Origin: Acidobacteriota bacterium
GTDB taxonomy: Bacteria; Acidobacteriota; Blastocatellia; RBC074
DNA length: 64,000 bases
Direction of reading: 5' to 3'
Assembly: GCA_016196035.1 (NCBI GenBank)
Contig: JACPYM010000010.1
Location: 62,001 to 126,000, forward strand
Shown: piece by piece, positions 10,360-41,108 of the stretch
How the letters are laid out: every line of letters begins with the position of its first letter
Numbering within the stretch: position 1 is the stretch's first letter
The notes under the pieces: model-generated
Told to the model about the DNA's origin: nothing
What the model saw: only the letters and a program-made list of their open reading frames with translations
Databases searched by the model: none
Translations under genes and position numbers: made by a program

Positions 10360-10716
10360 ATGAAAACGCAAGTTATTCGTTACGCATTCTTACTGCTACT
10401 TTGTGCCTTGCTCGGCGTCATCGGCGCGCAGGCGCAAAAAGGCAAACCCAAGATCAACGCGGACGCCACTGTGGCAACGGCCAACAGCGCCAACGCCACG
10501 GGCCAATGCAAAACGCCGAAGCCTCCCAATCGCGGCTGCAAAATCACTTGTAAGCCTTGTCAGGTGCCGGTGTGTGAAAACGGGAAGTGGCAATACGAAA
10601 ACATTGAAATTGATAAAGAGCAATGCCGTCCGCATCCCAACGACGATGGCGGCGTGTGCACGATTGGCACGAACGAGTATTGTCCGCCTTCGTGTAAGAA
10701 ATGTATTCGGCAGTAG
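10360..10716 (+). CDS. Small secreted cysteine-rich protein, unknown
   Basis: 118 residues. A clear Sec signal (MKTQVIRYAFLLLLCALLG, cleavage likely after AQA) is followed by a mature region with ten cysteines in paired spacing (CKITCKPC, PVCENGKW, CPPSCKKC). The ENGKW motif recalls small extracellular disulfide-rich domains, but I cannot name a family. AGAGGTG lies upstream of the ATG. Its TAG stop is the right part of a GTAG target duplication of the 101-bp element that follows immediately. Confidence 0.7.
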   Translation: MKTQVIRYAFLLLLCALLGVIGAQAQKGKPKINADATVATANSANATGQCKTPKPPNRGCKITCKPCQVPVCENGKWQYENIEIDKEQCRPHPNDDGGVCTIGTNEYCPPSCKKCIRQ

Positions 10717-10817
10717 TACTCCATCAAGCTGTAAGTGATGGATGCTGAGAGCGCATCCGGGATGTAGGGCGGGATTAAATCCCGCCCTACATCCCTCATT
10801 TTCAGCTTGATGGAGTA
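10717..10817. mobile_element. 101-bp palindromic MITE-like element, copy 1 (4-bp duplication GTAG)
   Basis: The ends are perfect 15-bp inverted repeats (TACTCCATCAAGCTG / CAGCTTGATGGAGTA). The middle holds an 18-bp perfect stem, GGGATGTAGGGCGGGATT and its complement. GTAG occurs on both sides (10713-10716 and 10818-10821), as expected of a target-site duplication. A second copy at 40097-40197 is identical over all 101 positions. There is no coding capacity, so mobility would depend on an enzyme encoded elsewhere. Confidence 0.88.
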
Positions 10818-10857
10818 GTAGGCCCCTTCTCCCTTGTTAGCGCTTGGCAGTGGCGCC

Positions 10858-11674: not shown

Positions 11675-11756
11675 TGTACGGCAGGCTGCCAGCCTGTCGT
11701 TGTTTCCGCAATGTGTTTGATTTGAATTCCGCAACAGGCTGGCAGCCTGTTGTACA
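11675..11756. repeat. Palindromic element with GGCTGCCAGCC core
   Basis: The arms TGTACGGCAGGCTGCCAGCC (continuing TGTC) and AACAGGCTGGCAGCCTGTTG (continuing TACA) pair over 24 positions with three mismatches around a loop of about 33 bases. It fills the gap between the TetR and beta-oxidation genes. The core resembles the GACAAGCTGCCAGCTTGTC arms at 31929-32011. Confidence 0.7.
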
Positions 11757-11779
11757 TCTTTCTCAGGAGCATTTATCCA

Positions 11780-38638: not shown

Positions 38639-40423
38639 TTACTTCACTTTGCCCGGCCCATACAAGGCGCGCCCCACTTTTGCGCCCGTGTGTTCGCCGT
38701 CTTTCAGCACTTGCTGGCCGTTGACGAAAACGTGTTGCACGCCGACCGAGTATTGATGCGGTTGCTCAAACGTCGCCTTATCGGCAATCGTGTTTGGATC
38801 GAACACGACGACATCGGCGAAATAGCCGGGTTTCAACAACCCGCGCCGGTCGAGTTCCAGCGTCGCGGCGGGCAGGCCCGACAACCGGCGCACGGCTTCT
38901 TCGAGCGAAATGACTTTTTCCTCGCGCACGTATTTGCCCAGCAGCCGCGCAAAACAACCATAAGCGCGCGGATGCGTGGACGACTTCAGGAACGCGCCTT
39001 CCGCCGCCATTGACGCGGCGTCAGAACCGAACGAGACCCAAGGCTGGGCGATCTGCTTTTTGATGTTCGCTTCCGACATCATGAAATAAACCGTGCCGAC
39101 GCGCGAGCGGTCTTCCAGGATCAAATCCATCACGGTGTCGGCCGGGTCTGTGCCGCGCAGCTTGGCGACTTCGGCGAGCGTTTTGCCCGCCAGCGGTTTG
39201 AGTTTTTCCGAGCGAAACCCGGCCAGCAGGATGCGGTCGAGCGAGCCGGGCAGCAGGAACATGTTTTCCCAGTCGTTGGTCGGCGTGCGCATTTCGGCGG
39301 CGATTTTCTGGCGCGTGGCTGGGTCTTGCAGCCGTTTGTACAGCGCTTCGTAACCGCCATCCAACACCCAGGGAGGCATCGTCGAAGTCAACCCCGTCGC
39401 GCCCGCCGTGTAGGTGTACATATCGGCGGTGATCTTCAAGCCCTGCCGGCGCGCCTCGTTGATGCGTTTGATGACGGCGTCCAGCTTCGGCCAGTTCTGT
39501 TCGCCCGAAGCTTTGAGGTGATAAATCTCGGCGGGCAGCTTGGCTTCGCGCGCGATGCGGATGGTCTCTTCGACGGCCTCCATAAACTGGTTCGCCTCGC
39601 TGCGGATGTGCGCGATGTATTTGCCGCGATATTGCGACGCCACTTTGCACAGCGCGATCAACTCGTCGGTCTTGGCGAAAAAGTTGGGCGGATAGATCAG
39701 CGCCGTCGTGACGCCCAGCGCACCCGCTTCCATCTCGCGGCGCACCAGGTCTTTCATCTGTTCAAGCTGGGCGGGGGTGGGCGCTTTGTCTTCCAGCCCG
39801 ATGACGTGCGTGCGCACCGTGCCCGCGCCGATGAACGAGGCGACGTTTTGCGAGATGCCGCGCTGTTCGAGATAGCGCAAATACTCGGCCAGCGTCGTCC
39901 AGGGCATGTCGTATTTGTAATCGCCCTGCGCGGCCAGCGCCGTGCGTTTCATCTCGTCGCTCAGTGGCCCCATCGAAGACTCGCCGAAAATCTGCGTCGT
40001 CACGCCCTGCCGCAATTCGCTGAGCGAGCGGTAATCCACGATCAGCGAGGTCTCGGAATGCGAGAGCATGTTGATGAAACCGGGCGCGACGGCTAGTACT
40101 CCATCAAGCTGTAAGTGATGGATGCTGAGAGCGCATCCGGGATGTAGGGCGGGATTAAATCCCGCCCTACATCCCTCATTTTCAGCTTGATGGAGTACTA
40201 GGCCCTTGGCCTCCACTACGGTCGTGGATTTGGCTTTGGACAGATCGCCCAGCGCCACGATGCGGTCGCCTTTGATGCCGACATCGGCGCGGCGCGGTTT
40301 GGCGCCGGTGCCGTCATAAAGCGTGCCGTTGCGGATGATGAGGTCATAGGTGCGCGCGGTCTGGGCGCACACGAGTGAAAAGGAAAGGAAAACGAGCAAC
40401 AAGCTAACGAGTGGTTTTTTCAT
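38639..40423 (-). CDS. D-aminoacylase-type amidohydrolase carrying an in-frame 35-codon palindromic insertion
   Basis: 594 residues, with a Sec signal (MKKPLVSLLLVFLSFSLVCA), so periplasmic. It belongs to the N-acyl-D-amino-acid deacylase branch of amidohydrolases: YDLIIRNGTLYDGTG, APGFINMLSHSE, FGSDAASM and the C-terminal HPRAYGCFARLLGKY. Residues 76-110 are the translation of the 101-bp element plus one 4-bp target duplication; without them the protein would read EAKGLAVAPGFINML, which matches the family. The insertion falls at the junction of the N-terminal beta domain and the barrel, so activity may survive. ATG at 40423 with GGAG upstream. Confidence 0.88.
   Translation of the reverse strand: MKKPLVSLLLVFLSFSLVCAQTARTYDLIIRNGTLYDGTGAKPRRADVGIKGDRIVALGDLSKAKSTTVVEAKGLVLHQAENEGCRAGFNPALHPGCALSIHHLQLDGVLAVAPGFINMLSHSETSLIVDYRSLSELRQGVTTQIFGESSMGPLSDEMKRTALAAQGDYKYDMPWTTLAEYLRYLEQRGISQNVASFIGAGTVRTHVIGLEDKAPTPAQLEQMKDLVRREMEAGALGVTTALIYPPNFFAKTDELIALCKVASQYRGKYIAHIRSEANQFMEAVEETIRIAREAKLPAEIYHLKASGEQNWPKLDAVIKRINEARRQGLKITADMYTYTAGATGLTSTMPPWVLDGGYEALYKRLQDPATRQKIAAEMRTPTNDWENMFLLPGSLDRILLAGFRSEKLKPLAGKTLAEVAKLRGTDPADTVMDLILEDRSRVGTVYFMMSEANIKKQIAQPWVSFGSDAASMAAEGAFLKSSTHPRAYGCFARLLGKYVREEKVISLEEAVRRLSGLPAATLELDRRGLLKPGYFADVVVFDPNTIADKATFEQPHQYSVGVQHVFVNGQQVLKDGEHTGAKVGRALYGPGKVK
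40097..40197. mobile_element. 101-bp palindromic MITE-like element, copy 2, inside a gene (duplication CTAG)
   Basis: Identical to 10717-10817 at every position. CTAG flanks it at 40093-40096 and 40198-40201. Element plus duplication is 105 bp, keeping the frame of the amidohydrolase. In the orientation in which it is read, two of its three frames lack stop codons; all three frames of the other orientation contain stops. Confidence 0.9.
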
Positions 40424-40509: not shown

Positions 40510-40749
40510 ATGGAAGAAACGCTTTTACAACGCATCACACTCAACCCCGAAGTTTGCTTTGGCAAACCGACCATTCGGAACATGCGCTACCCAGTCGAAA
40601 TGATTCTGGATTTGCTCGGCGCAGGCATGACGTTTGAAGACATATTGACCGACTATCCCGACCTGGAAAAAGAAGATTTGCAAGCCTGCCTTTCGTTCGC
40701 CGGCAAACTGGTCAAAGTGAACTCCATCCATAAAGTAATCTCGGCCTGA
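40510..40749 (+). CDS. DUF433 antitoxin (VapB-like)
   Basis: 79 residues. DUF433 signatures are seen as ITLNPEVCFGKPTIRNMRYP and LGAGMTFEDILTDYPDLEKE followed by DLQACLSFAG. Members form a winged helix that represses the operon and neutralises the adjacent PIN-like toxin. Start ATG at 40510, chosen because homology begins at LLQRITLNPEVCFGKP. Its stop TGA overlaps the ATG of the toxin (TGATG at 40747-40751). Confidence 0.85.
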   Translation: MEETLLQRITLNPEVCFGKPTIRNMRYPVEMILDLLGAGMTFEDILTDYPDLEKEDLQACLSFAGKLVKVNSIHKVISA

Positions 40750-41108
40750 TGAAATTCCTGGTTGATGCACAATTGCCTTATCGCCTAAAACTCTGGCTCG
40801 TCGCAAAAGGTTTCGACGCCATTCATACAGACGACTTGCCAGCGCAAAGCCTCTCGACGGATCTGGAAATTGTGCGGATTGCGGATGCCGCAGGCCGCGC
40901 GGTCATTAGCAAAGATAGCGACTTCCTCAAACTGCACATCTTGCAGCACAAGCCTGCGCAATTACTGATGCTCACCACTGGCAACATCATCAACCAACGA
41001 TTGCTTGCGTTGGTTGAGCAAAATTTCGAGACAGCTAGCCAGTTGTTCGAGTCCTATCAGGTCGTCGAAATCAGCAACTCCTTCGTCATCGGCCACAGCT
41101 TCGAATAG
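40749..41108 (+). CDS. DUF5615 PIN-like toxin
   Basis: 119 residues. DUF5615 nucleases open with MKFLVDAQLPYRLKLWL (first acidic residue D6) and contain VISKDSDFLKL (acidic pair near residues 56-58), as here. It is predicted to be an RNase toxin held inactive by the DUF433 protein encoded just before it. Its stop codon abuts the stop of the convergent M20 peptidase gene with no base in between. Confidence 0.85.
   Translation: MKFLVDAQLPYRLKLWLVAKGFDAIHTDDLPAQSLSTDLEIVRIADAAGRAVISKDSDFLKLHILQHKPAQLLMLTTGNIINQRLLALVEQNFETASQLFESYQVVEISNSFVIGHSFE

Follow-up and report, generated by a model that had tools for sequence, protein, structure and literature searches.

The 101-bp sequence found twice in the window, that is, in the whole 64-kb stretch of DNA analysed here, is in all probability (about 0.9) a non-autonomous MITE of the IS630-family type, which targets CTAG, has spread recently and is moved by a transposase supplied in trans. 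Direct observation covers the copies, their identity, their ends, the flanking duplication, the target preference and the fact that the ends are homologous to those of IS630-type elements. An insertion sequence of the IS630 family would have contributed its two ends, joined around a small REP-like palindrome, and a transposase acting in trans would excise the resulting MITE; both the trans-acting IS630 enzyme and the cut-and-paste chemistry are inferred. Insertion by a 4-bp staggered cut at the palindromic CTAG, or rarely at GTAG or CTAC, would then leave the target repeated on both sides. One of the two copies would thus have landed on a GTAG overlapping the TAG stop codon of a gene for a small secreted protein, with the protein unchanged.

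Structure and genomic copies of the element

Copy 1 occupies positions 10717..10817 and copy 2 positions 40097..40197, both on the forward strand, and they are identical at 101 of 101 positions. Copy 1 is flanked by GTAG (10713..10716 on the left, containing the TAG stop codon, and 10818..10821 on the right), and copy 2 by CTAG (40093..40096 and 40198..40201). The ends, TACTCCATCAAGCTG and CAGCTTGATGGAGTA, form an inverted repeat that is perfect over 15 bp and matches at 25 of 28 positions over 28 bp. In copy 1, the left terminal inverted repeat spans 10717..10744 on the forward strand, with its first 15 bp perfect, and the right one 10790..10817 on the reverse strand, with its last 15 bp perfect. 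A central perfect palindrome, GGGATGTAGGGCGGGATT-A-AATCCCGCCCTACATCCC, lies at 10759..10795 and has 18-bp arms that are 100% complementary. A single strand of the element is predicted to fold into one near-complete hairpin of -45.6 kcal/mol, compared with -11.0 kcal/mol for shuffled sequences (z = -13.6). Terminal inverted repeats of this kind and a length of 101 bp, with neither a transposase gene nor room for one, agree with the definition of a MITE. No Rfam family was matched in the 64-kb window. Another palindromic repeat, GTACGGCAGGCTGCCAGCCTGTCG...CAACAGGCTGGCAGCCTGTTGTAC, is located between two genes at 11677-11760 and is separate from the element.

The source genome is a 9.59-Mb draft in 139 contigs with a completeness of 96.9%. 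A BLAST search combined with an end-pattern search of this genome, followed by extraction of the flanks, has identified 53 complete copies, 41 of which are identical and 12 slightly different (1-4 differences where simple comparison gave counts). One copy (L052) has a small tandem duplication inside one end and is left out of the 52 unrearranged copies considered below. There are several additional copies that are truncated or located at contig ends. Three contigs (C86, C25 and C91) end inside copies (L060, L067 and L070), and so the repeat itself fragments the assembly. Because differences among the copies are nearly absent, the element has undergone a recent burst in its own genome, through which it has spread very recently. 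The initial annotation had reported the identity of the two window copies, their 15-bp perfect ends and the 4-bp duplications GTAG and CTAG, and had proposed recent movement; the sequence bears out the former, and the 53 complete copies with 41 identical ones support the latter.

A search of 195 genomes, the source genome included, with the element has shown that beyond its own genome only that of a member of the same genus (G001) gives matches, and these are to diverged versions. No match was obtained in plasmids, and the exact terminal inverted repeat was not found in viral contigs. When GTDB genomes were scanned for the pattern of the terminal inverted repeat, three Acidobacteria MAGs (again the G001, G004 and G009 loci) were detected, as was a MAG of Scytonema in which a TAC end is flanked by CTAG, together with apparent chance matches. 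G001 has its own MITEs flanked by CTAG repeats.

The source genome also carries three more MITE variants, flanked on either side by CTAG and with related ends of the TAC... type: L279 (1505-1604; C49:8249-8348) of about 100 bp with G001-type ends, L281 (1505-1575; C88) of about 71 bp, and L282 (1505-1682; C111) of about 178 bp with a different palindrome, GTAGGGGCAGACCTGCGTGTCTGCCCC. The central hairpin varies between variants (L078, L098, L126, L279 and 10759-10795 of the window) yet stays palindromic (GTAGGGCGGGATT, GTAGGGCGGATTA, GTAGCGCGGAGTA and GTATGGCAGGATT). Similar palindromes stand free in G001 (L103, L105, L108, L114 and L116). To judge from these sequences, it looks as if REP-like hairpins had been captured by MITEs.

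Target site and length of the duplication

All of the 52 unrearranged copies are flanked by a perfect 4-bp repeat, which is CTAG in 50 cases, GTAG in one (copy 1 of the window) and CTAC in one (L008); a search for copies lacking such a duplication, which would have spoken against transposition, has found none among the 52. In an 863-kb sample of the source genome, on which the insertion-site statistics are based, CTAG occurs 475 times, GTAG 1132 times and CTAC 1092 times, so that CTAG is preferred about 117-fold over GTAG/CTAC. The target is therefore CTAG and not NTAG in general, and GTAG is a rare off-target. Consistently, neither TTAG/CTAA nor ATAG/CTAT is found among the 52 copies, although these tetramers outnumber CTAG in the sample. 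Thus, the count of all copies and the tally of their flanks, which the initial annotation had suggested, have replaced the NTAG preference that it had drawn from two sites. The distribution fits the behaviour of IS630-type elements, which insert at TA preferably within CTAG.

IS630 and ISY100 duplicate TA, and IS630 prefers TA in 5'-CTAG-3' (PMC2170065, referring to Tenzen & Ohtsubo 1991). Canonical IS630 chemistry could therefore apply here as well, in which case the duplication would be the TA inside CTAG and the element would be 103 bp long, with G as its first and C as its last base. At CTAG sites, the sequence is the same whether 101 bp have inserted and duplicated 4 bp or a G...C element of 103 bp has duplicated TA, so that the two models are indistinguishable there and 50 of the 52 copies are compatible with either. 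Other IS630 elements of G004 (L150 and L157) read C-TA...TA-G, in line with a 2-bp TA duplication. However, the window copy (GTAG...GTAG) and L008 (CTAC...CTAC) break the tie: the base beside the terminal TA matches the target and not the element, and hence derives from the target. To keep the TA duplication, one would have to assume for each of these two copies both a target that departs from the consensus and a terminal base that has mutated to match it, which makes this alternative unlikely. The 2-bp model does not call for a CTAGTACTAG target: under either model the empty site is CTAG, and the GTAG and CTAC copies alone tell the models apart. The duplication is thus, as judged from these two copies, likely to be 4 bp long and not the canonical TA of IS630.

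The chances are about even that a CTAG-specific branch of IS630 cuts with a 4-bp stagger (NTAN) instead of at the canonical TA. Such a cut would go unnoticed at almost every site, since both models predict identical CTAG flanks, and only the few insertions into GTAG and CTAC would expose it. CTAG repeats have been reported for ISPsy32 (PMC8027508), and they may represent the same 4-bp phenomenon. The two off-target copies are a natural source of evidence for how long the duplication is in a CTAG-specific IS630 lineage.

Placement relative to genes

Copy 1 lies at the end of a forward-strand gene (10360..10716) encoding a small secreted-type Cys-rich protein of 118 amino acids, to which no Pfam family is assigned; as judged by eye, its N-terminus resembles a signal peptide and it contains many Cys residues. 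The open reading frame ends with TAG at 10714-10716 within the left repeat (GTAG, 10713-10716), and the stop codon, which the initial annotation had likewise described as restored, survives because the left repeat copies the target. When the 475 CTAG sites of the 863-kb sample are classified by a simple codon-usage gene caller, 228 are intergenic, 173 fall in genes as CTA-G, 46 as xCT-AGx, 27 coincide with a stop codon TAG and 1 lies at the edge of a gene. Eight of the 52 copies are on TAG stop codons, with the stop kept, 12 are inside genes and the remainder are intergenic; the window copy at the stop codon was missed by the gene caller and is counted among the eight from its translation, and three of the 12 in-gene copies (L011, L023 and L027) were assigned by reading of the open reading frames. 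Fewer copies lie inside genes than CTAG availability predicts (12/52, where 46% would be expected; p = 0.0005). An enrichment of stop codons among harmless sites is not clear, given CTAG availability in the sample (8/52 copies, p = 0.10). The landing at a stop codon is therefore unremarkable and is the behaviour of a CTAG-directed element under purifying selection.

The element and its duplication together add 105 bp (101 + 4), which corresponds to 35 codons, and one frame is open through the element plus both repeats. Six predicted genes read through it, and each gains the identical 35-residue peptide VLHQAENEGCRAGFNPALHPGCALSIHHLQLDGVL. One of them is the D-aminoacylase-type amidohydrolase gene of the window (38639..40423, reverse strand; Pfam Amidohydro_3), in which copy 2 forms the insert. 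Alignment of its product with the D-aminoacylase of PDB 1rjp shows that residues 70 and 71, which are contiguous in 1rjp, flank exactly 35 extra residues of the query. By Pfam family, the others include a Uma2 nuclease (L013), an alpha/beta hydrolase with the insert in the signal peptide (L023), a Ser/Thr kinase (L031, 1021-2142) and TsaE (L034, 1064-1627); the sixth is a protein without an assigned family (L027). In the kinase the insert directly precedes GTVDYMSTEQARG within the activation segment, and in tsaE, a gene that is usually essential, it lies in frame close to the C-terminus. Near the amidohydrolase, at 40511-40800 of the window, a DUF433-like gene is followed by a DUF5615/PIN-like gene (by eye), which is a probable toxin-antitoxin pair.

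An enrichment of in-frame insertions had been suspected from the first few copies, but it was gone after the reading frames of CTAG were counted: 6 of the 12 gene-interior copies are read through against an expected fraction of 0.395 (p = 0.32). The presence of the same 35-residue peptide in six different predicted proteins, five of which have a Pfam family, offers material for tolerance tests.

Origin and comparison with known systems

Ends homologous to those of the MITE flank IS630 transposases in relatives. In G001, CTAG followed by TACCTCATCACGGTAGAAATGAGGGG precedes the N-terminus of a transposase (L118), and at another contig end (L122) the same kind of terminus accompanies the matching C-terminus. 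A decayed full copy in G026 (L117) has CTAG followed by TACCCCATCAAG next to a decayed transposase. The end nearest to that of the MITE is in G004 (L120/L171), where 24 of 28 positions match and none of 20,000 shuffles is as good, and there the contig end cuts it off. A close relative of the transposase, L156 of G008, matches NCBIfam NF033545 (transpos_IS630), and complete IS630 elements in G008 (L156), G007 (L158 and L163) and the phylum (L182 and L186) are likewise flanked by CTAG. The ends of the MITE are thus related to those of autonomous elements, as seen in the IS630 ends of G001 and G026 and in the 24/28 end of G004.

In the source genome, which is 96.9% complete in 139 contigs, no intact transposase flanked by matching ends turned up. 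The nearest transposase match there is a decayed fragment (C2:91048-91440) that is 50% identical. No DDE_Tnp_1 (PF01609) or DDE_5 (PF13546) transposase locus of this genome, when checked, has matching ends, and in a survey of IS630 loci (DDE_3, PF13358) across 11 genomes of the family none of the source-genome loci has MITE ends. The initial annotation had proposed a search for an autonomous transposase with matching ends, naming IS630 among the possible types; an IS630-type partner was found in relatives but not in the source genome itself. Because only a decayed fragment and IS630 genes without MITE ends are left there, the mover has been lost, is unassembled or is another IS630 enzyme. An autonomous partner in the same genome is not required for an element to be a MITE.

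An argument against an IS630 origin is that the duplication is confined to TA in the well-studied members of IS630 (PMC2170065), whereas 4 bp are required by two of the present copies. MITEPsy1 of Pseudomonas, by comparison, equals the present element in size, 4-bp duplication and preferred target (PMC3189936), and the element could be a MITE of an IS5-group element instead. However, the IS5-type ends of MITEPsy1 (GGAAGG...) match those of the element at only 1 and 4 of 18 positions, YTAA targets are never found among the copies, and the homologous ends in relatives enclose IS630 transposase genes, so that an IS5 derivation, already disfavoured, is highly improbable. A domesticated protein-coding palindrome resembling the Rickettsia palindromic elements (RPE), retained because genes tolerate the in-frame addition of 35 codons or benefit from it, would explain the 105-bp unit with its open frame and the six read-through genes, including tsaE, the kinase and the window amidohydrolase. 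It is nevertheless quite improbable, since read-through is not enriched and the majority of copies are intergenic or at stop codons. The near-perfect identity of the copies could also reflect homogenisation, with gene conversion or inter-repeat recombination as the means of spread, but the copies occur at many places in unrelated flanks, an exact 4-bp repeat of its own borders every one of them, and several interrupt otherwise continuous genes; transposition as the source of the copies is challenged by this possibility to an almost negligible degree.

Several described systems resemble the element in part. IS630-family insertion sequences that target CTAG, such as IS630 and ISPsy32 (PMC2170065, PMC8027508), share the target, and homologous ends with a transposase are present in relatives; unlike them, the MITE has no transposase gene, and two of its copies indicate a duplication of 4 bp and not of TA. 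MITEPsy1 of P. syringae pv. phaseolicola, which is 100 nt long, generates a 4-nt duplication of CTAG or YTAA and is assigned to IS5/ISPsy2 (PMC3189936), is alike in size, duplication length and main target but has unrelated ends. RPEs are palindromic repeats that can be inserted within genes without shifting the frame, so that one and the same peptide is added (PMC10969869); the MITE shares the in-frame palindromic insert, but it shows no in-frame enrichment and has clear ends and target duplications. Compared with the GTAG-tagged REP sequences associated with RAYT, the central palindrome likewise contains GTAG, at its stem, and G001 has related palindromes outside any MITE, but the GTAG of the MITE is inside the stem and there is no unpaired tag. 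A limited paper search has found no MITE reports for Acidobacteria, and the present case records how MITEs have very recently burst in this group, linking the event to a CTAG-specific IS630 lineage. In P. syringae pv. actinidiae, MITEPsy3 is 102 bp long and present in 78 copies, and ISPsy25, an IS630 member, has been proposed as its mover (PMC6053426); although it belongs to another phylum and is likened here by description, it shares the length of about 100 bp, the tens of copies and the proposed IS630-type mover. MITEs of the IS630 type, among them the 102-bp MITEPsy3, are the closest known kind, and the 101-bp element adds one more example to a well-known element type.
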